From: Fibrobacter succinogenes
Lineage (GTDB): Bacteria > Fibrobacterota > Fibrobacteria > Fibrobacterales > Fibrobacteraceae
Length of the DNA: 60,529 nt
Reading direction: 5' to 3'
Assembly (NCBI GenBank): GCA_902768715.1
Contig: CACXMH010000022.1
Span: forward strand, 1 to 60,529
Shown: positions 16,269 to 59,790 of the stretch, one piece after another
Layout: each line of letters opens with the position of its first letter
Position numbering within the stretch: the stretch's first letter is position 1
Notes under the pieces: model-generated
The model's database searches: none
Told to the model about the DNA's origin: nothing
Seen by the model: only the letters and a program-made list of their open reading frames with translations
Made by a program: the position numbers and the translations under genes

Positions 16269-16353
16269 GGATCCTCGCCTTCGCGAGGATGACGTTCCTC
16301 AAAGCAAAGCGACCTCAAACCCCTAGATCCTAGCCCCTAAACCCTAGCCCCTA
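16269..16353. repeat. Composite REP plus hairpin plus heptad array
   Basis: On the minus strand the order is five TAG heptads (16353-16319), TGAGGTC, a short GC-TTT-GC hairpin, TGAGGAA, then the REP-like palindrome (16293-16269). The heptads encode the last five residues (VGARV) and the TAG stop of the EAL gene. A partial heptad array lies further left, near 16240-16260, before cobA. Confidence 0.8.
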
Positions 16354-18307
16354 CATCATAATGCTCACGCATGTAGGCCAAAGCCTTTTCGGGAGCCAGC
16401 GGCTTGCTGAAGTAGTAACCCTGAATATAGCGGCAGCCTTCCCGTTTCAAGAACTGCAGCTGTTCTTCCGTTTCTACCCCTTCGGCAATCAGGTCCAGGT
16501 TCAATGTGTTGGCAATGCTAATCACCATCCGTGCAAAAGTGGCATCCTCTTCGTCGTCCGCAATGTGGTCAATAAAGGACTTGTCCATCTTGAGGGTATG
16601 CACCGGATAGCGCTTGAGGTAAGAAAGGGAACTGTAACCCGTACCGAAATCATCAATAGAAATCTGGAGTCCCATGTTGGAGAGAGCCCGCATAATGTCT
16701 ATGGCCTTTTCCACTTCGCACATGGCGGTGTATTCCGTAATTTCCAGTTTCAAATTCTTGGGGTTCAGCTGGGTTTCGGCAAGCACCCGCTTCACGTCGT
16801 CCACCATGTTGTCCAGGGTGAACTGCTTTGCGGAGAAGTTTACGGCCACGCGAATATCGGTAAAGCCCATATCCACCCATTTCTTGGTCTGCTCGCAAGC
16901 CATCCGCAGAATCTGGGCACCCATAGGCACAATCAGGCCGGTCTCTTCGGCCAGAGGGATAAATTCTGCAGGGGACACAACCCCGTGCTCAGAATTGTTC
17001 CAGCGGACAAGGGCCTCGAAACCGGACACCCTGTTCCCACGTTCGATATCTACGATGGGCTGGTACACCAGCACGAATTCCTGGGCCTGTATGGCTCTGC
17101 GGATTTCGTACTCCAACTTGTACAGCTTCATGGCCTTTTCGCGGATGCCACCGGCAAAGAACTGGATACCGCCATGATTTCCACCCTTCTTCAAGTCCCT
17201 GAGCACTGCCGTGGCGTTAGACAGCAAATCTTCTACGCAGTCCACGTCCTTGTTTACCACGACCGCCATAGACACGCTGATATAGAGTTCCCGACCGTCC
17301 AGCTGGATAGGCGTTTTCACCTTGTTGTGGAGGCGCTTTACCGTAGGCATCAGTTCATCATCGGAACCCCTGCCCTCAATATCGTGAAGCACCACCGCAA
17401 ACACATCGGGACCAATGCGGGCCACGCAGTCATTGTTCCTACAAGTGGAACGGATACGGTCAGAGACAATCTTCAGAACATTGTCGCCAAAGTTCATGGA
17501 ATAGGATTCATTAATAGCGCCAAAGCTATCGATATCCAGAAGCACCACCGCAAAGGTGTAATCCGGCTTCTGGGCCGCCATATCTACATCTACCTTCAGC
17601 TTTTCCAAGAAGAACTTGCGGTTATACACACCGGTAAGGGCATCACGATAGGCGTAGAACTGACGGTTGCTTTCTTCCTGTTCCTGAGCACTGGTAATGG
17701 ACCCGATAACGCGGATGGGCCTTCCTTCCTCGTTACATTGGGGGCGTCCCGAAATCATAATTTCAGAACTGCCGTCCTTGGGAACATTCAAGAGGCGCAG
17801 CTTCGCCGAAAATGGCGAGTTCTCCTCTAACGAAAAGGAGAATTTTTCCTTGAAGGTCGTCCAGTCACTTTCCAGGACGGCATTCTTGAGGGTATCAAAA
17901 GAATCGACAATGCTGGAAGGCTGAATGTTCAAGAATTTCGCCACCCTGTTAGACCAATATGCCTTTCCCGTAGGCACGTCGAAAGTCCAGAAACCGTCGG
18001 AGGACACGTCCACCAGCATCTGGAACAGTTCGTCTTTTTCGGAAAGGTCCTTCTGGTAATCACGGGAGGGAGCCTGTTCCACCTTCTCCGGAACTTCTAC
18101 ATCGTTACGAATCTTTTTTCGGTTGCCCTGAACAGGAAACCTGTAAAAAAGCGAAACATAGGCAAGGAAAATAATCGCAAAAAAATAGGGGATAAACCCC
18201 ATGGGTTTTTCAGACAAATGAACAATATCGGGAATAAATGCGGTAAAGAGGAAGCACGCAAACAAAAGCGCGAAACGCAGAACGACATGTTCGTCAAATA
18301 ATCTCAT
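16337..18307 (-). CDS. Membrane PAS-GGDEF-EAL protein, probable c-di-GMP phosphodiesterase
   Basis: 656 residues. Two membrane segments lie at about residues 8-32 and 35-58, so signalling is cytoplasmic from the inner membrane. A PAS-like domain follows (about 95-205), then a GGDEF domain (about 220-385) and an EAL domain (about 400-650). The GGDEF signature is degenerate (RIGPDVF in place of GGDEF), so cyclase activity is unlikely. The EAL domain keeps EALVRW, LEITEY, DDFGTGYSSL, KMDKSFI, AEGVET and QGYYFSKPL, so it should degrade c-di-GMP. The start at 18307 (MRLFDEHVV) has an AGGGAT site; an in-frame codon at 18364 is less likely. A tandem palindrome lies about 60-90 bases upstream and is shared with the EAL gene at 58106. 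The C-terminus is made by a genomic repeat. Confidence 0.9.
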   Translation of the reverse strand: MRLFDEHVVLRFALLFACFLFTAFIPDIVHLSEKPMGFIPYFFAIIFLAYVSLFYRFPVQGNRKKIRNDVEVPEKVEQAPSRDYQKDLSEKDELFQMLVDVSSDGFWTFDVPTGKAYWSNRVAKFLNIQPSSIVDSFDTLKNAVLESDWTTFKEKFSFSLEENSPFSAKLRLLNVPKDGSSEIMISGRPQCNEEGRPIRVIGSITSAQEQEESNRQFYAYRDALTGVYNRKFFLEKLKVDVDMAAQKPDYTFAVVLLDIDSFGAINESYSMNFGDNVLKIVSDRIRSTCRNNDCVARIGPDVFAVVLHDIEGRGSDDELMPTVKRLHNKVKTPIQLDGRELYISVSMAVVVNKDVDCVEDLLSNATAVLRDLKKGGNHGGIQFFAGGIREKAMKLYKLEYEIRRAIQAQEFVLVYQPIVDIERGNRVSGFEALVRWNNSEHGVVSPAEFIPLAEETGLIVPMGAQILRMACEQTKKWVDMGFTDIRVAVNFSAKQFTLDNMVDDVKRVLAETQLNPKNLKLEITEYTAMCEVEKAIDIMRALSNMGLQISIDDFGTGYSSLSYLKRYPVHTLKMDKSFIDHIADDEEDATFARMVISIANTLNLDLIAEGVETEEQLQFLKREGCRYIQGYYFSKPLAPEKALAYMREHYDVGARV

Positions 18308-18364: not shown

Positions 18365-18395
18365 AGTCCAACTCGGACTATTCCAACTTGGAATA
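18365..18395. promoter_or_regulatory. Tandem palindromes upstream of the GGDEF-EAL gene
   Basis: AGTCCAACTCGGACT (18365-18379) is followed directly by ATTCCAACTTGGAAT with outer bases pairing (TATTCCA/TGGAATA, 18379-18395). Both share TCCAACTYGGA. They lie about 60-90 bases before the start codon at 18307 and 2 bases before the stop of the upstream gene. The downstream copy matches the site at 59772-59790. Confidence 0.55.
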
Positions 18396-18396
18396 T

Positions 18397-18723
18397 TTAC
18401 AGCTCTTCTAGCCTAGAATAAAGGCTGTAGAGCCTTTGGACTCCATTTTCAAGCCCATAATAGTGCTTGATGTAAGGAATAAGTAAGGTTAGGAACAGGA
18501 TATCCAAGGCCAAAACCAGGTACTCCGGCATAGCCACAAAAAAAAGAAAGCCGCCCACAGTAAGCAGAGCAAAAAGAATCATGACCAACTCGTGAACCAA
18601 CCTTTCGTGCTGGAAAAATCCGATATGGGTTCGAACCGAGAGCAACTCATCGCGCGAAAGGGGCGTACCCAGGGCAATACGCTGCTCCAGACTGCAGGCG
18701 TAATTTTCAAGATCCTTCAACAT
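18397..18723 (-). CDS. Small two-helix membrane protein
   Basis: About 108 residues (117 if an upstream TTG at 18750 is used). An N-terminal soluble helix (residues 1-45) is followed by two hydrophobic segments: LVHELVMILFALLTVGGFLF and YLVLALDILFLTLLIPYI. A short polar tail YSLYSRLEEL ends it. Neither start is well supported: the ATG at 18723 has AAGGA only one base away, and the TTG has no site. It lies directly upstream of the GGDEF-EAL gene, so it could be a partner, but the palindromes in between suggest separate control. No family was recognised. Confidence 0.6.
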   Translation of the reverse strand: MLKDLENYACSLEQRIALGTPLSRDELLSVRTHIGFFQHERLVHELVMILFALLTVGGFLFFVAMPEYLVLALDILFLTLLIPYIKHYYGLENGVQRLYSLYSRLEEL

Positions 18724-31962: not shown

Positions 31963-32424
31963 CTAATCAAAAATCACCCCCTGTAGGAGGCCTTCCAGTT
32001 TTTTCTTGCCGATTCCGGGTACTTTTTGCAAATCCTGTGGGCCCGAAAAAGGGCCGTTTTGTGCACGAAACGCCAAAATTTTCTCGGCAAGCTTGGGTCC
32101 AACCCCTTTCAGGGCGCACAATTCCTCTACCCCTGCAGAATTGACATGTATGGGCAATTTTGGCTTTTTTTGTTTATTTTTCGCGTTTTTTGTTTTTTTT
32201 GCCTTTTGACCATCATCCACAGCGGATGTTACTTTGTCTGTAACCACGATAAAGTCAGGTCCGGACATTTTCGAGATATAATCTCTTTCGGCGATATATT
32301 CCAAATTGGAGTATTCTTCCACCTGCCCGATGGCGGGTACACCCCAGGGTAGATAGCGGAAAACCAGCCCAAGTACCAAAAAGACCAGGGCCATACGGAG
32401 GATTTGTTTTTCGGGAGCGTTCAT
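31963..32424 (-). CDS. ComEA-like membrane-anchored helix-hairpin-helix protein
   Basis: 153 residues. An N-terminal membrane anchor (MALVFLVLGLVFRYLPW) is followed by a Lys-rich spacer (about 75-95) and a C-terminal ComEA HhH pair: VNSAGVEELCALKGVGPKLA and FSGPQDLQKVPGIGKKKLE. Such proteins bind DNA at the periplasmic face in natural competence. The ATG at 32424 is preferred. It lies next to pilM/pilN-like genes, which supports a DNA-uptake role. Confidence 0.82.
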   Translation of the reverse strand: MNAPEKQILRMALVFLVLGLVFRYLPWGVPAIGQVEEYSNLEYIAERDYISKMSGPDFIVVTDKVTSAVDDGQKAKKTKNAKNKQKKPKLPIHVNSAGVEELCALKGVGPKLAEKILAFRAQNGPFSGPQDLQKVPGIGKKKLEGLLQGVIFD

Positions 32425-36270: not shown

Positions 36271-38004
36271 TTACTTTGACTTGGGCCGCTTGTAACCGAA
36301 AGACTTCAGCAGGTCTTCGGTGACCTTCTTGCTCTGGTTCATCTTGTTCACGTTGGTGGCCTCATCAAAGGGCGGCAGGTCGCAACGCAAGGTGCTCTTC
36401 ATGGTGAACTCCGTCTTGTAAACGTAAGCACCGGTTGCGTACAGGCGGCCATTATCCGTATGCAGGTCGCCGTTCTCGTCGGGCTTCATTTCAAAGTACA
36501 GAGTCAGCACACCGGCATCGCTTGCGTAGCTCGGATCGTTCAGGTCCTGAGTAAAGCTGAAGTAATCCACGAACTGTCCAAGAGACGTGTAAATCCAAAT
36601 CTTGGCACTCATCTTGGTATCGTAAATGTTCGCCTTACTGATGTCGCTACCCAGATCGCTCTTGAAGTCGGCGGAGCAATGCTCTTCCACGAATTCTTCC
36701 ACGGTCACCTTCTTGCTACCCACGGCATCGACGGCATCCAAAAGAATCAAACCGTCACTGCCAACCAGGTCATCGAGAGTGGCTAGGCCGCCAACAGAAT
36801 TGATCACGGGAACCTTCGTCTCGATACCGAGAGTGGGGCCCAAGTGGTCGGTCAGGCCCGGATAGACTTCTTCGCCAGGCTTGGCGGCCTTGTTCTTGAA
36901 GCTTCCGCCAACCTGTGTCTCGATTTCCTTGTCAGCCTGGGGGTTGTAGATAGACACTGCGAAGGTCTGGCCCTCTTCGGGTTTCTTGCTGGCGTAGTAC
37001 TTGTCCACGTCTTCCTTGGTAATGTTCGTCACAGGCTTTTCTACAGTAATATCTACGTCCTTGGTGTTCTTGGCCATCACATATACCACCGCAGAAGCCT
37101 CGTTACCGGCCTTGTCGCGGTAGAAGCGGACAATCTCGTTGATTTCTCCGGGCTGCAGGCCTTCGACTGTCAGGCTATCCTGAATCTGGCAGCCGCGACC
37201 GTCGCCCAAATCCACGCACCACTGGACTTCGACCATGTTGGAATGCAGCACGGCCTGGTCTTCGGGAGAAAGGATCTTCACCGTAGGCGGAATCAGGTCA
37301 ACCACAATGTAAACGGACTGGGTAGAAGAGTTGCCCATCTCGTTTACATAGGTGTAGCTTACCTCGTAGCCAACGTTGCCATCCTTGTCCTTGGTCACCT
37401 TGCCCTTCTGGTCAACGGTATAGCTCACCTGGACTGTTGTTTCGCCAACACCCTTCGCCTTGGTGGCATAGTCGTAGGTCACCGAGAACAGGACTTCGCC
37501 TTCGGTCAGGGAGTAGGCATACACAGGAGCGGCATTGCCGATTTCAGAACCAGAACCGCCATTGGAACCGCTGTTCGTCCCGGCGTTAGAGCCACCGTTC
37601 GCACCACCGTTGGAACTACTATTCGTACCACCGTTGGAACCGCCATTAGAACTGCCAGGCTTTCCGCCGTTGGAGCCGCTGTTGGTGCCGGCATTGGAAC
37701 CGCTGTTAGATGTACCGGCGTTGGCCGTGCCCGTAGAGCCCGAATTAACCGTCGTGGTCTTGAGTGCCTGACCCGTGGCAGCATCGGCCATGTAAGACAC
37801 GTTCACCGTTTTGCCGCCTACGTTCACCTGGTAAGACACCGTGATGACTTCGATGGAATCAATCTTTCCATTGGCGCCAATCACCGGAATCTTTTCCACA
37901 TTGCCGTTCTTGTCGGTCACGTACGAAATCACCACATCTACGCCGGCAACCTTTTCTGTATAGGAAACCTTGACCTGGTCGCCATTGTACTGGGAGTAGG
38001 TCAC
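36271..38004 (-). CDS. Surface protein, C-terminal part (continues the cadherin protein)
   Basis: 577 residues with no ATG and no signal peptide. It begins with GTG overlapping the upstream stop by four bases (GTGA) and continues the same type of beta-rich sequence (VTYSQYNGDQVKVSY), so it most likely belongs to the upstream gene and is separated by a single-base frame change. A Gly/Ser/Asn-rich tract with repeated NGGSNGGTN-like units lies at about residues 85-150. A bacterial Ig-like segment (LIPPTVKILSPEDQAV) and a C-terminal domain of unknown fold follow. Translational coupling of two proteins is possible but the second would lack an export signal. Confidence 0.6.
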   Translation of the reverse strand: MTYSQYNGDQVKVSYTEKVAGVDVVISYVTDKNGNVEKIPVIGANGKIDSIEVITVSYQVNVGGKTVNVSYMADAATGQALKTTTVNSGSTGTANAGTSNSGSNAGTNSGSNGGKPGSSNGGSNGGTNSSSNGGANGGSNAGTNSGSNGGSGSEIGNAAPVYAYSLTEGEVLFSVTYDYATKAKGVGETTVQVSYTVDQKGKVTKDKDGNVGYEVSYTYVNEMGNSSTQSVYIVVDLIPPTVKILSPEDQAVLHSNMVEVQWCVDLGDGRGCQIQDSLTVEGLQPGEINEIVRFYRDKAGNEASAVVYVMAKNTKDVDITVEKPVTNITKEDVDKYYASKKPEEGQTFAVSIYNPQADKEIETQVGGSFKNKAAKPGEEVYPGLTDHLGPTLGIETKVPVINSVGGLATLDDLVGSDGLILLDAVDAVGSKKVTVEEFVEEHCSADFKSDLGSDISKANIYDTKMSAKIWIYTSLGQFVDYFSFTQDLNDPSYASDAGVLTLYFEMKPDENGDLHTDNGRLYATGAYVYKTEFTMKSTLRCDLPPFDEATNVNKMNQSKKVTEDLLKSFGYKRPKSK

Positions 38005-41000
38005 GGTTCCAGTTCAGCATTCACCGTAAAGGAACGGGTCTCGTAATTGCAGGTAGAATCCGTATAGGACTCGTCCAGCACGGGTTCCTTGACCGTAACC
38101 ACGATGTCGTTGTTCTTCTTGTTCACATACACCGAGGTATCTCCCTCTGCCGGGGTTTCGACCAGGGTAAAGATGTTGCCACTGTTGTCATGCTCGGCAG
38201 CCGTTGTCACCGTCACTTCGGGAGTACGGGTGCTGACAAAGATACCCACCGTTTCGGTAACCCCGCTGTTCTTGGTGGGGTCCTTGTAGGTAAGCGTCAC
38301 CACATTGAAACCTTCGTGGAGATTTTTATGCCAGCAGGAATCCAGCCGTTCGCCTTCGCACATGTCCTTGCCATCGGCAGTCCACTGGATAAGCATGCTG
38401 TTCTCGTTGGTGTACAGGGTCCCAGTCGGGTTTGTCCAGTTCTGCGATCCGCTGCCAGTCTCTGCATAGGTCACCACAATCTTCGACGTTTCCTTGACAT
38501 CGGAAATATTGATGGTAACAGTGGCCGTGTCGGCATTGCCATCGGGATCCTTTACCTGTACCACCAAGGTATATGTCTTCTGGGTTTCGTAGTCAAACAC
38601 GTCGTTGGTCTTGATGACACCTGTATTGGCATCGATGGTGAACTTGGTCTTGTCGCCACCGATAGCGGTAAAGGTGTTCTTGCGGAAATTCTCGTTCTGG
38701 TCGGGGTCGTACAATTCCAGAGTACCCACCGTAGTTCCCTTGGGCTGGTTTTCGGCCACCGTCATGGTGGCGTCATCGATTTCAGCGCCTTCGTTGATAT
38801 CCTTGATGGTGATTTTCACGAGGGTTTCGATACGATTGTGTCCATCGTTTACAAACACCTGGATTTCAAACGTCGTCTTGGTGAGAGCCTCGAAATCGAT
38901 TTGCCTTGCCACCTTGACCTTGCCAGTCTTGGCATCAATGCTAAAGGCCTTGCCGTTGTTTCCGCTACCAAAGGAGAACGTGAGGGTGTCGCCTTCGGGA
39001 TCGCTGCCCGTTACCGTACCCACAACGGAATCTACAGGAGCGTTTTCGCGGATAGTGACCGTAAACCCGCTAGCCGTGGGCAACTCGTTGCCGTCAATAA
39101 CGGTTATCGTTGAAGGAAGTTCAATGCAGCTGGGCGTATTGCCAGGTTTGCCGTTATCGCAAATGCGGATTGTCAGGACATAGGAGGAGTCCGTCTCGTA
39201 ATCGATGGCATAGTCCTTAGTCACCACGATATTTCCGTCAGGCGTAACGTTAAACAAGTTATCCGGGTTGCCGCCTACGATGCTATAGGTCAAAGCAGAA
39301 CCGGCATCTTCATCGAAACCTTCTACGCAACGGTAAAGAACATCGCCAACCACACAATCCACAGGAGTTCCAGCCGTGGCATTTTCTTGTATGGTTCCGT
39401 TACGGACCGTCGCCGTTGGAGGTTCGTTGACGTCGATGACGTTGACAAGAGCCCAAGCCCTCACTGTATGCACCCCATCGGAAACATCCACGCCCAGCAG
39501 GTAGAGCGAGCCATCCTCGTAGTTCGGAGCTCCCGTTACCGAAATCTCACCGGAGGAGGCATTGATTTCAAACAGGGAACTGGCGTTACCTTCGGCAATG
39601 GTATAGGTCATTGTCTTTTTCTCTGGATCGGTGGCAGTAATCTGGCATCCCTTGGTCCAGGTCGTAGTGTTCTCTTTTATTTCGCAGGTGTCATTCTGAA
39701 CCACCGGAGATTCGTTTTCATTGGTAACCCGCACAATGGCCGTAACGGTGGTGTCTTTGCCATCCTTGTCGGAGACCTTCACGCTTAAGGTGTACTTGTA
39801 ATCCTGTGACGCCAGCGCTTCGTAATCGATGTTCTCTTTCGTGTAAACCAGCGCAAAGGTATCGCCCTGAACAAACTCCTTCCTTATCTCAAAGACTCCA
39901 TTCGGATCGCCAGAGGTAATGGTGTATGTCAAGTATTTTCTTCCGTCTTCAGGGTCAATCGCCTTAATCTGGCCTATAAACTGACCGATACCGCCATTCT
40001 CCACGACTGTAGTATCAAAACCAGCGGCCACAGGTTTTTCGTTCACATTGTTAATGGTCACGTTTACATTTACAACCACTGAGTCCTTGCCATCAGAAAC
40101 CGACACTAGCAAAGGATACACGGGGTTAGCCAGGGCCTCGTAATCAAGGGTGCCATTGACCTGAATCTGACCGGTAGAGGTGTTTATCTTGAACACATTC
40201 CCTACGTTTCCGTAAATAATATGGTATATCAAGGCCCATTTTTCGTCAGGACTCTTCAATGTAGTCGAATCCACATCGTGACCTTCCACCTTGCAAACAT
40301 TTGTATTCTTGGCAACATTCTCATTGATAGTCTTGTTGCAGCCTTTTGCGGTGGGAGCGTCGTTCACAGGGGTTACGTTGATGGTCAAGGTATAATTGCC
40401 GGAAGCAGGTGCCGTCACACCTTCTGCCGGATCATTAATTTTGAACGAGATAGTCGTGTACGGAGAGCCGGACTGGTTAAGTGCAGGAACAAACGTCAGG
40501 TTCCCAAGATTACCGCTTGAAACAGACAAGCCTCCAGCCGGAAGCGACGTAACGTCCGAACCGTTCAGCTTGAGCGTTCCCTTACCCGGAAGACCCGTGA
40601 TAAGCACGTTATAGGCGGTTCCGGTTCCATCGGAACATTGCGCCGGGAAAAAACCGTTAAGGTTAAGGACAGCGTCTTCCGGGACGGTCACGCTGTTATT
40701 GGCACCAACAATATTGCAAGGAGTCGTATTGTCATTGTCGATAATCTGCATAGAAACTGGCCACTCACGGCTATTGTCGCTAAACACGCCCCCAGTCAAA
40801 TTAAAGATTTGCAGCGTAAAAAATTCGCGGTTTTCTGCAACGCCATCGTCGTTTATCCAGATCTTGATAGGAGTTTCCGTTTTCAGCGAGTCCTTAGGAA
40901 TACGGGCAGACGCCGTATCCGCGCCGCAAATAGGTAGGGAGATGTAACCTGTACATCCCGACTGGCCGCTGGTGGTACAAACGTCGTTAATGTTGGCGAG

Positions 41001-42287
41001 CGTGGACCCCGACGCCACGGTACCGTTAAATTCAAAACAGTACTTGAAGGTCACGTCAGTAGTAGGAGCTTTGGTGAGACTGATGTCCAGTGAGCTTCCG
41101 GTATATCCTCCAACGACATCGGCCTCAGACAATATCTGGTTCGCCGCCATGTTAAGTCCAATCTGAGGCGGGTTGAAGGGGACATACTTGAAGTCCTTTG
41201 CATCGAAATCGGCATTAATTCGAATGACTTTTCCAAGGAGCTGTCCGGCAAAATGAGTATGCTGCGAAATCGTAATCACGCCACTCGAGAGATATGAACC
41301 TTGCAATGTCTTATCCGCGGCTCCCATGCTAAGATCGTTGGGCGTGTAGAACAAAAGATTTCCCGCGTAATCGGAATTGGCGAGAGGAGTGTCCGAAAAG
41401 CCGACCCATGCGGAACCGTTCCAAGTAGCACCCTTGGCATACACCACAACGATTTCACCACTGGTAGAACCTATTCCAGTAATGCTCCCTTCTACATAAA
41501 TCTTAGTCAACCGACCATTGGGGGGCATCACCACATGAAGTTTCGCGTTATTCTGTAAATGAATTGAAGGGATTACAATGTTGTAGGCACTAGAGTCCCC
41601 ATCTGGATTGGCAGGAACATGGATATACACGGTTCCTCCATTTCCACTAATCGCATTTATTCGATGCATTAGTTCAGAGCTATAATCTGGGGTGGGTATA
41701 TCCAAGTCCGAATCCACCGCATAGACCTGTTTTGTATCGGTGCAGAAGCCTGCATTACTTGTAGAAATAGAGCCATGAGCATTGGAAACGCCAGTGCTTG
41801 TATATCCATTATAACTAGAGGCACAGTTCTTGCCTGCAAAATAGTTGTTCCCTGCTCCATTATTGCTCGCATTAAAGGTTCCATTGAAGCGGGTAGGTCC
41901 AGTCAAGATAGAGTCCGTTCCCGTTTCATTGCTAAAGGAGCCGCCAAACATCAAGGGGCCACCAATGGAGTGGTTAGAGTTTCCACCCATCTTGAAGTTA
42001 CCCGTCGCACTACCCACATAGCCCACACTGTCCGTTATATGGATATTTTGGCCCACGAAATTAATACCTTCGCTACTAACACCCGTAGCGAACAGCTTGT
42101 ATTTCATCAAGCGTTTCCACTTTTCTAACTGTTGGTCTTGCCAATCAGAATCCGTCTGTCCATTTGCCTTAGCATTGAACTTAAACGGCTTGACATCTAT
42201 CTCGTAGGTAGGTTCGCTCGCATACGAGGCGCAGACGGCCCCGACCACCAGGGCCAGTCCTAGTAAATTTTTCTTTAACACCCACAT
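38001..42287 (-). CDS. Giant secreted cadherin-repeat protein, N-terminal part
   Basis: About 1428 residues. The signal peptide MWVLKKNLLGLALVVGAVCA is followed by an N-terminal domain (to about 370) rich in Gly/Ser strands with repeated short units, a Calx-beta-like segment, then six cadherin-like repeats, each beginning with NE(x)P or NEG, containing ENx(6)VG...DPD or AxDPE and ending with DGxxxxxVT-type strands. Such repeats bind Ca2+ and form long rods in secreted adhesins. The start at 42287 has AGGAG seven bases upstream. It ends ELEP-stop where the frame moves into the downstream part (GTGA overlap). A role in adhesion to plant cell walls would suit a fibre degrader, but this is inference. 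Confidence 0.82.
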   Translation of the reverse strand: MWVLKKNLLGLALVVGAVCASYASEPTYEIDVKPFKFNAKANGQTDSDWQDQQLEKWKRLMKYKLFATGVSSEGINFVGQNIHITDSVGYVGSATGNFKMGGNSNHSIGGPLMFGGSFSNETGTDSILTGPTRFNGTFNASNNGAGNNYFAGKNCASSYNGYTSTGVSNAHGSISTSNAGFCTDTKQVYAVDSDLDIPTPDYSSELMHRINAISGNGGTVYIHVPANPDGDSSAYNIVIPSIHLQNNAKLHVVMPPNGRLTKIYVEGSITGIGSTSGEIVVVYAKGATWNGSAWVGFSDTPLANSDYAGNLLFYTPNDLSMGAADKTLQGSYLSSGVITISQHTHFAGQLLGKVIRINADFDAKDFKYVPFNPPQIGLNMAANQILSEADVVGGYTGSSLDISLTKAPTTDVTFKYCFEFNGTVASGSTLANINDVCTTSGQSGCTGYISLPICGADTASARIPKDSLKTETPIKIWINDDGVAENREFFTLQIFNLTGGVFSDNSREWPVSMQIIDNDNTTPCNIVGANNSVTVPEDAVLNLNGFFPAQCSDGTGTAYNVLITGLPGKGTLKLNGSDVTSLPAGGLSVSSGNLGNLTFVPALNQSGSPYTTISFKINDPAEGVTAPASGNYTLTINVTPVNDAPTAKGCNKTINENVAKNTNVCKVEGHDVDSTTLKSPDEKWALIYHIIYGNVGNVFKINTSTGQIQVNGTLDYEALANPVYPLLVSVSDGKDSVVVNVNVTINNVNEKPVAAGFDTTVVENGGIGQFIGQIKAIDPEDGRKYLTYTITSGDPNGVFEIRKEFVQGDTFALVYTKENIDYEALASQDYKYTLSVKVSDKDGKDTTVTAIVRVTNENESPVVQNDTCEIKENTTTWTKGCQITATDPEKKTMTYTIAEGNASSLFEINASSGEISVTGAPNYEDGSLYLLGVDVSDGVHTVRAWALVNVIDVNEPPTATVRNGTIQENATAGTPVDCVVGDVLYRCVEGFDEDAGSALTYSIVGGNPDNLFNVTPDGNIVVTKDYAIDYETDSSYVLTIRICDNGKPGNTPSCIELPSTITVIDGNELPTASGFTVTIRENAPVDSVVGTVTGSDPEGDTLTFSFGSGNNGKAFSIDAKTGKVKVARQIDFEALTKTTFEIQVFVNDGHNRIETLVKITIKDINEGAEIDDATMTVAENQPKGTTVGTLELYDPDQNENFRKNTFTAIGGDKTKFTIDANTGVIKTNDVFDYETQKTYTLVVQVKDPDGNADTATVTINISDVKETSKIVVTYAETGSGSQNWTNPTGTLYTNENSMLIQWTADGKDMCEGERLDSCWHKNLHEGFNVVTLTYKDPTKNSGVTETVGIFVSTRTPEVTVTTAAEHDNSGNIFTLVETPAEGDTSVYVNKKNNDIVVTVKEPVLDESYTDSTCNYETRSFTVNAELEP

Positions 42288-42443
42288 ACACAGTCTCCTG
42301 GGCAAGGCCCAAATCCGCAAGGTCCCCTCGACAATGCGGCACACACTATGTTAAATATACTTTATAATTCCCGTATTTCAAAATGGAATGTTTCGATTTG
42401 GATACATTTTAGTGATAAAAAAGACCTTTTTTTGCACTTTTTT

Positions 42444-58105: not shown

Positions 58106-59707
58106 CTACTTATCCACCACCAAAGTGGCAGAACCATAGGCCTTCACCGGGCGACCATTCTCGTCAAATTCCGTCGTGTAGCGGACATGGAACGGTATCC
58201 TGTTGGGAGTCAAGGGAATAACACCTTCCACACTCTTGGCGCCGTTGTCAATCTGCCTATGCCAATCGCGGTACATGTCCGCATAGTCCGGCGGGAAAAT
58301 GCCTCTTTCAATGGCCGGCTCAGGATAGTTGCGGAGCAGTGGAGGCAAGCCCAAGTCCCGCTGGCAACGGAAACAGGGACGCATCTCCTTAGTAGCCACG
58401 GTATACTCCCAGAAGTAGATGTTGGCCTGCTCGCTGGCGGCCTTGAACCTGCGTTCCGTATCCAGCATTCCCTGGAACACGTTCTTCTCGTTGGTGATGT
58501 TCCGGATCATCACATAGTAAAGCTTACTGACCTTACTTTCGCCGATAAGTTGTATGGAGCTGCGTATACAGATGCGTTCCGTACCGCAACAGCCCGAGGT
58601 GATATTCCGCCAGGTTTCGCACTCCTGCTCTTCACGAGTGGCAGCCGCACGCTCCAGGGCGGCCTTGTAGACCTTCTGGGATTCAGCATCCAGCACATCG
58701 CAGGGGTTCAGGGCGATAATTTCCGTTTCGGACAAGTTCATTCCCAACTCACGGACGTACTTCTGGTTCACCCGCAAGATTTCCATAGAGCACTTTTCGC
58801 CGGTATGGACCTCTACAATGGCGGCCGCCCCCACAAAATTGCTGAAAATCAGGGTTTCCATAGAAATCGGGTTCCAGAACCGGCCTGCATCCACAAACTG
58901 GTCGATATTCATCTGGGGCACAATCATGCCCACCGTAGAGGCCCCCAAAAGCTTCTCGTATTCCTCTACCGGAAGGGGCTTAGAATACAGGTAGCCTTGC
59001 ACATAGTCACAGCCTACGCTCTTCAAGAAGTCGGCCTGCTCCACGGTCTCTACACCCTCTGCAATTACCGGGAGCTTGAGCCACTTGGCCATACGGATCA
59101 CAGAACTCAGGATAGTCCCGCCACGGTCACTACCGATAGCGCCATTGATGAACTGCAAATCCAGCTTCAGAACGTCGAATTCGATATCCTTCAGAACATT
59201 CAACGAAGAATACCCGCTGCCGAAATCATCCATCTCCACCGTATAGCCCAACTTGTGCAGCTTCTTGATGGAATCGACGACCACCTGAGTATCCGTGACG
59301 GCGGCTGTCTCCGTCAGTTCCACGTGGATAAGCCTGGTGGGAATGTCGAACTTCTGCCGTATGGCATCGAGACGCTCAATATATTCCGGGCTCAAGATGT
59401 CGTTACGAGACATATTCACGGAAACTCGTGCCAGGGCGCTATTGGAGTCGATACAGCCCCGGAGGAACTGACAAACATGCTCAAAGACGTACAGGTCCAG
59501 CGTGGGAATCAGGCTCATCTCCTCAAGAGCCGGGATAAAATCCGCCGGCGAGATAAAACCGTACTTCTGAGATTTCCAACGGACAAGGGCCTCGGCGCCA
59601 ATCAGCGCACCCGTCGAATGGTTGTACTGGGGCTGAAAATAGACCTGGAACTCGCCCTTCTCGATGGCGGGTTCAAACGACTCCGAAATCTGCCGAAACG
59701 ATACCAT
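58106..59707 (-). CDS. EAL-domain protein with C-terminal PAS-like region
   Basis: 533 residues, no membrane segment. The EAL domain comes first (about 1-260): GAEALVRW, HVELTET, MDDFGSGYSSL, LKLDLQF, AEGVET and QGYLYSKPL keep the catalytic residues, so a c-di-GMP phosphodiesterase is likely. The C-terminal half (about 270-533) has PAS-like segments but no known signature. No GGDEF domain. It shares an upstream palindrome with the 16.3-kb EAL gene. The start is ATG at 59707; no strong ribosome binding site. Confidence 0.87.
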   Translation of the reverse strand: MVSFRQISESFEPAIEKGEFQVYFQPQYNHSTGALIGAEALVRWKSQKYGFISPADFIPALEEMSLIPTLDLYVFEHVCQFLRGCIDSNSALARVSVNMSRNDILSPEYIERLDAIRQKFDIPTRLIHVELTETAAVTDTQVVVDSIKKLHKLGYTVEMDDFGSGYSSLNVLKDIEFDVLKLDLQFINGAIGSDRGGTILSSVIRMAKWLKLPVIAEGVETVEQADFLKSVGCDYVQGYLYSKPLPVEEYEKLLGASTVGMIVPQMNIDQFVDAGRFWNPISMETLIFSNFVGAAAIVEVHTGEKCSMEILRVNQKYVRELGMNLSETEIIALNPCDVLDAESQKVYKAALERAAATREEQECETWRNITSGCCGTERICIRSSIQLIGESKVSKLYYVMIRNITNEKNVFQGMLDTERRFKAASEQANIYFWEYTVATKEMRPCFRCQRDLGLPPLLRNYPEPAIERGIFPPDYADMYRDWHRQIDNGAKSVEGVIPLTPNRIPFHVRYTTEFDENGRPVKAYGSATLVVDK

Positions 59708-59771: not shown

Positions 59772-59790
59772 CTATTCCAAGCTGGAATAG
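59772..59790. promoter_or_regulatory. Palindrome upstream of the second EAL gene
   Basis: CTATTCCA-AGC-TGGAATAG, an 8-bp inverted repeat, lies 65-83 bases upstream of the start codon. It matches 18379-18395. A weaker second copy may follow toward the gene, where the first gene has a tandem copy. Confidence 0.55.

Follow-up and report, generated by a model that had tools for sequence, protein, structure and literature searches.

Fibrobacter ranks among the main degraders of cellulose in the guts of herbivores. We know of no regulator for the rise in c-di-GMP that F. succinogenes S85 shows on cellulose. The level is given as ~2.5-fold higher on cellulose than on glucose in the accessible part of PMC6851124. 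A 60,529-nt stretch of a 2.84-Mb Fibrobacter draft genome (contig C22, analysed over its full length and hereafter the window) carries two genes for EAL-domain proteins, each preceded, according to a first-pass annotation, by the same palindrome. This raises the question of whether the palindrome is a genuine operator, which genes it would serve and which protein would bind it. Judged by titles and opening abstract lines, none of the open-access papers found in searches on Fibrobacter, with subscription journals mostly outside their scope, describes such a regulator, operator, regulon or small RNA; in the portions available, PMC2864571 names Fibrobacter in its reference list only, and PMC5442110 has c-di-GMP in its references only.

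A palindrome upstream of two EAL genes

The palindrome TATTCCA-N3-TGGAATA was found as an exact 17-mer before both genes. Operator 1 (18379–18395) is separated by 71 bp from the downstream ATG of EAL gene 1 (16337–18307, minus strand), at bases 72–88 counted from base 18307, just as annotated. For operator 2 (59773–59789) and the ATG of EAL gene 2 (58106–59707, minus strand), the gap is 65 bp and the site occupies bases 66–82 from base 59707, within the 65–83 originally given. The flanks are similar, as had been claimed: read along the gene strand, both sites share TTGGAATAG-YCC-nAGT. The first site is indeed tandem: a weaker palindrome, AGTCCAACTCGGACT (18366–18380), directly adjoins operator 1 and places a TTGGA half-site 15 bp gene-ward of operator 1's own. 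A third, imperfect palindrome with three mismatches lies further upstream of EAL gene 1 (18404–18420), and a counterpart, also with three mismatches, is equally placed in the close relatives L072–L080. None of these palindromes has an assigned strand.

The EAL domains were borne out by Pfam (5e-73 for gene 1, 3e-68 for gene 2). EAL gene 1 encodes a PAS-GGDEF-EAL protein and EAL gene 2 a predicted EAL phosphodiesterase, and both proteins retain the signature EALVR, N, E, DDFGxG, K and E, residues that signify phosphodiesterase activity. Because this signature is kept in both and the GGDEF motif is absent from the first, both proteins look like phosphodiesterases.

The annotation's statement that no other gene in the window has the palindrome stood for exact copies and needs qualification for imperfect ones, at 32297–32313 and 42374–42390. 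With up to three mismatches allowed, the window contains six matches against 1.87 expected, a number attained in 0 of 100 shuffles. The two-mismatch site at 42374–42390 (no strand assigned), ~30 bp upstream of the ORF of a large cadherin-repeat surface protein (38001–42344, minus strand; 1447 aa), is probably a weak operator, making this gene a possible target; at locus L228 of another species, G009, an exact copy lies 33 bp upstream of a homologue. The one-mismatch match at 32297–32313 sits within a coding ORF and was set aside as chance. An Rfam scan of the window yielded tRNA and SRP RNA alone, with no match on the palindromes, which therefore do not appear to be a catalogued RNA element.

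Genus-wide distribution and target genes

The source genome contains eight exact sites and none of the reversed pattern; with up to two mismatches, the counts are 45 and 1. Exact sites occur in all 37 Fibrobacter genomes examined (source genome included), at 3–20 copies each, and in none of the 23 genomes taken from elsewhere in the phylum, which represent other genera, families and classes. The reversed pattern matched once over all 60 genomes. A chance likeness of two promoters, which could appeal to the small number of sites in the window and to nothing further, is thus extremely improbable in view of eight exact sites against a control of zero and their conservation throughout the genus.

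We then compared orthologous promoters. The best relatives of the EAL-1 protein come from 48 Fibrobacter or Fibrobacteria-named loci (58–98% identity), on which the assignment of the source genome to this genus rests, and a site with at most two mismatches was present within 300 bp upstream in 33 of these 48 Fibrobacter loci (20 exact, 11 with one mismatch and 2 with two). The other 15 lacked a good site, two having one with three mismatches and 13 nothing, and the reversed-pattern control gave no match upstream of any of the 48. Among the closest loci, 71–72 bp separate the site from the start, and the spacer is free to vary. For EAL gene 2, 11 loci were fetched and one incomplete locus was excluded; nine of the ten with readable upstream DNA have a site with at most one mismatch (three exact, source genome included, and six with one), and one locus has none. 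Upstream of both sets of orthologues, the arms are conserved and the spacer and flanks drift.

The tandem arrangement is also conserved at EAL-1: of the 33 site-bearing loci, 31 have TTGGA (at least four of five bases) at +15. This extra half-site, 15 bp gene-ward, suggests that a second dimer may bind beside the first at the EAL-1 promoter. A general rule of a third half-site was rejected, the signal being strong at EAL-1 only; in a profile over all targets, from which 11 spurious-looking ORF clusters were omitted, it reached 15/99, the highest downstream offset, with 8/99 on the opposite side.

The palindrome thus recurs above chance and is conserved at orthologous promoters, the two features by which a transcription-factor operator is predicted. 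On this comparative evidence, it is almost certainly a genuine control site of a genus-wide Fibrobacter regulon. We also considered a dispersed repeat, a REP-like element or an RNA hairpin that has no common binder: a 7-bp stem could form in RNA, and a few copies lie within genes or at gene ends. However, each genome has just 3–20 copies, their flanks drift while the position at orthologous promoters is kept, and they lie on or beside the −10 element at padR and upstream of it at other genes, leaving this reading very unlikely. Genome counts, genus-wide conservation and orthologous positions led us to discard both the repeat and the chance reading. The palindrome would instead serve a single dimeric transcription factor as its operator, and the genus-wide regulon of this factor is rich in c-di-GMP turnover genes.

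To define this putative regulon, we surveyed the DNA around the source-genome sites and around every one of the 74 exact sites of five relatives, and clustered the neighbouring ORFs, sites with exactly one mismatch being taken from the source genome only. Of the 82 exact sites in the six genomes, 14 are followed within 2.6 kb by a correctly oriented GGDEF or EAL domain, compared with 1.68 expected (Poisson 3.5e-9, a value that is indicative because related genomes are not independent and EAL domains without GGDEF were counted in the source genome alone). Within 1.5 kb, the count was 12/82 against 0.97 expected. Random dispersal, or a repeat unrelated to such genes, is therefore not what the search for the 17-base motif returned: besides the eight exact sites in the source genome, it revealed enrichment before GGDEF/EAL genes across six genomes and positions conserved at orthologous promoters. 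In addition, a response regulator–HD-GYP gene follows an exact site in five of the six genomes and a one-mismatch site in the source genome.

A c-di-GMP link shared among the targets of the putative operator is strongly supported by these counts (14/82 vs 1.68). The suggestion of a common regulator of c-di-GMP breakdown genes was, however, too narrow in its "breakdown", since cyclases and genes outside c-di-GMP metabolism share the site, and the majority of sites are not beside c-di-GMP genes. Recurrent c-di-GMP targets, with domains confirmed by Pfam, are the response regulator–HD-GYP, FIST-GGDEF, membrane GGDEF, PAS-GGDEF and GGDEF-EAL proteins; in the source genome, the FIST-GGDEF gene is followed by a GGDEF-EAL gene. 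Other recurrent targets include a sugar transporter, a DUF2147 protein, large secreted proteins, lipoproteins and a PadR-family gene, along with what we take from their sequences to be an alanine racemase and a ribosome-hibernation factor. A GH5 cellulase, a RelA/SpoT enzyme and a presumed pilin-like protein are single cases.

Three individual loci are worth recording. In G009, an exact site precedes the RelA/SpoT gene (L246:3126–5279), which hints at a ppGpp link. The FIST-GGDEF target of G020 (L192:571–2994) carries a fused HD-GYP domain, giving a sensor with synthesis-type and breakdown-type domains. Elsewhere, one site is shared by divergent genes for a conserved protein of ~460 aa (L214:3187–4575) and a membrane-like protein of ~130 aa (L254:3183–3575), neither with a Pfam match.

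A PadR-family protein as candidate binder

Of 61 genus genomes, 53 were found to have the PadR-family gene (29 of the 30 good-quality ones), and its product is the single PadR-domain protein detected by Pfam in the source genome, G003 and G010. In the best-scoring 30 of the 53 genomes with a match, an exact palindrome lies 13–68 bp before its start in every locus (30/30; control 0). The candidate protein matches Pfam PadR above cut-off (5.2e-14), and 20 other aligned copies are 83–95% identical to that of the source genome, with an almost invariant C-terminal part. Its AlphaFold model (mean pLDDT 68) consists of a winged helix followed by C-terminal helices, and Foldseek matched it to 5x11 (B. 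subtilis PadR on operator DNA, the top match), 8ioi and 5z7b; with moderate confidence, we assign it a PadR fold with a C-terminal helical domain, s1-like. A search of viral contigs with the PadR protein found no relative.

The site is also placed differently at padR than at other targets. Taking hexamer matches as −10 calls, 28 of the 30 padR loci have a TATAWT that starts at −13 to +1 relative to the site, and none lies downstream of it. Among 56 other gene–target pairs, drawn from 13 chosen target groups rather than from all clusters, the former arrangement occurs in 1 and the latter in 29, with no downstream TATAWT found in the remaining 27; at padR, four of the six bases of TATATT come from the operator itself, and it is the two extra bases that separate the groups. 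An operator that covers or abuts the −10-like element of padR points to autorepression, and PadR would, judging by this position, repress its own gene. Furthermore, the centres of the outer half-sites ATTCC/GGAAT are 10 bp from one another. PMC5050560 cites this distance for the recognition helices of PadR, and the half-sites would thus fit PadR dimers. The binder of the palindrome is likely to be PadR, that is, the single PadR-family protein of Fibrobacter genomes.

Finding an exact site in front of padR is no proof in itself that PadR is the binder: the operator could be real and belong to another regulator, padR being merely one of its targets. In favour of this reading, exact sites are most numerous (20) in G020, where no PadR was detected at 96% completeness; an assembly gap could explain this case. 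Pfam PadR was absent from all eight genus genomes, G020 among them, that were chosen because the protein search had found none there. The operator also differs from published PadR sites, resembling neither the AphA site nor the ATGT/ACAT PadR operators. On the other hand, the PadR promoter is the only one with an exact site in every examined locus and the only one where the site regularly covers or abuts the −10, a classic mark of self-regulation, and no second transcription factor is recurrent among the targets of the six genomes. We therefore regard another regulator as rather unlikely and retain PadR as the candidate.

A structured small RNA and the direction of control

In several genomes, the site has no gene behind it. 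Alignment of these regions brought out conserved DNA that has a TATATT of its own and ends in a terminator-like sequence. A covariance model built from ten sequences (27 pairs) describes a structured RNA of ~90–115 nt, found once each in 49 of 61 genus genomes (loci L311–L322 and L323–L352); in the source genome (G000), the match is at C6:84176–84265 on the minus strand (L349:1501–1590). Covariation was analysed on 25 distinct rows from 27 of 30 fetched loci, in an alignment fitted to the model: 94.5% of cells were paired, and seven pairs had changed on both sides compared with 1.5 in shuffles, none of 500 shuffles reaching seven. The predicted structure is thus supported. Against Rfam, the RNA had no match at the gathering threshold, the hits to SNORD46, isrK and others being rejected as far below cut-off, and it is apparently undescribed.

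The palindrome lies upstream of the small RNA in all 30 loci fetched, some of them from closely related genomes (8 exact; 3, 17 and 2 with one, two and three mismatches, respectively), compared with four mismatches at best for the reversed control. The source-genome site had been among the two-mismatch matches before the RNA was recognised. From the end of the site to TATATT, the distance is 41 bp in 29 loci and 42 bp in the source genome. With the start placed ~12 bases past the first base of TATATT, the site centre falls ~62 bp upstream, the classic place of a class-I activator. An operator that ends at a fixed 41–42 bp before the small-RNA −10 and lies upstream of the −10 at many other targets suggests probable activation, and PadR may act as a class-I-like activator at the small RNA and many other targets.

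Alternatively, PadR could bind and repress every target, its upstream sites blocking another activator or forming a loop. Most members of the PadR family whose operator complexes have been solved are repressors, and the site of padR itself overlaps the −10. Simple repression, however, does not need the constant 41–42 bp between site and −10 that is kept over diverged small-RNA promoters, as contact with RNA polymerase would, and we hold it to be improbable, though worth bearing in mind.

Our favoured reading, to which we give a fairly good chance, is that one dimeric factor, most likely PadR, binds a genus-wide operator, represses itself and activates a regulon rich in c-di-GMP genes. Turnover of c-di-GMP, cell-surface and cellulose-related proteins and the small RNA would then be coordinated in response to a ligand of the PadR C-terminal domain. 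The putative regulon reaches beyond c-di-GMP breakdown, has a candidate regulator that can be named and includes an apparently undescribed small RNA. Now that a single protein has been put forward together with an operator and a target list, c-di-GMP control in this phylum becomes directly testable. A bolder proposal, which we put forward tentatively and consider less likely to be right than wrong, makes the PadR-family protein the master activator of c-di-GMP signalling across Fibrobacter: sensing a ligand linked to plant fibre, it would repress itself and drive c-di-GMP enzymes, cellulose-contact proteins and the new structured small RNA, which would extend the regulon post-transcriptionally, in parallel to and independently of the Vibrio AphA network.

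Among known systems, VpsT, FleQ and Clp are c-di-GMP-linked regulators of biofilm and c-di-GMP gene sets; the candidate belongs to an unrelated protein family, and the likeness lies in the control of c-di-GMP gene sets, here predicted. B. subtilis PadR and the VanR-type PadR repressors are ligand-responsive and local. They share the modelled fold, 5x11 being the top structural match, and differ, as far as the sources available describe them, in their operators and from the many-locus regulon with probable activation proposed here. The closest analogue of the candidate system is AphA, a PadR-family protein of Vibrio cholerae that, in the accessible part of PMC6855506, binds the palindrome ATGCAA-N4-TTGCAT and its own promoter, occupies two adjacent sites cooperatively and targets regulators and cell-envelope genes. 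As far as that text goes, the two systems have in common a PadR-type N-terminal winged helix, a palindrome and a site at the own promoter, binding in Fibrobacter being predicted; they differ in phylum, site sequence, partners and signals, and since the Fibrobacter site departs from the AphA operator, the candidate does not appear to be an AphA orthologue. Similarly, Clostridioides difficile cdPadR1, a short PadR-s2 protein with the site GTACTAT-N2-ATTATA-N-AGTA, binds its own promoter and has many more motif copies in its genome, according to the available part of PMC5050560. The candidate resembles it, on that account, in the site at its own promoter and the many genomic copies, and differs from it in PadR type and in site sequence.
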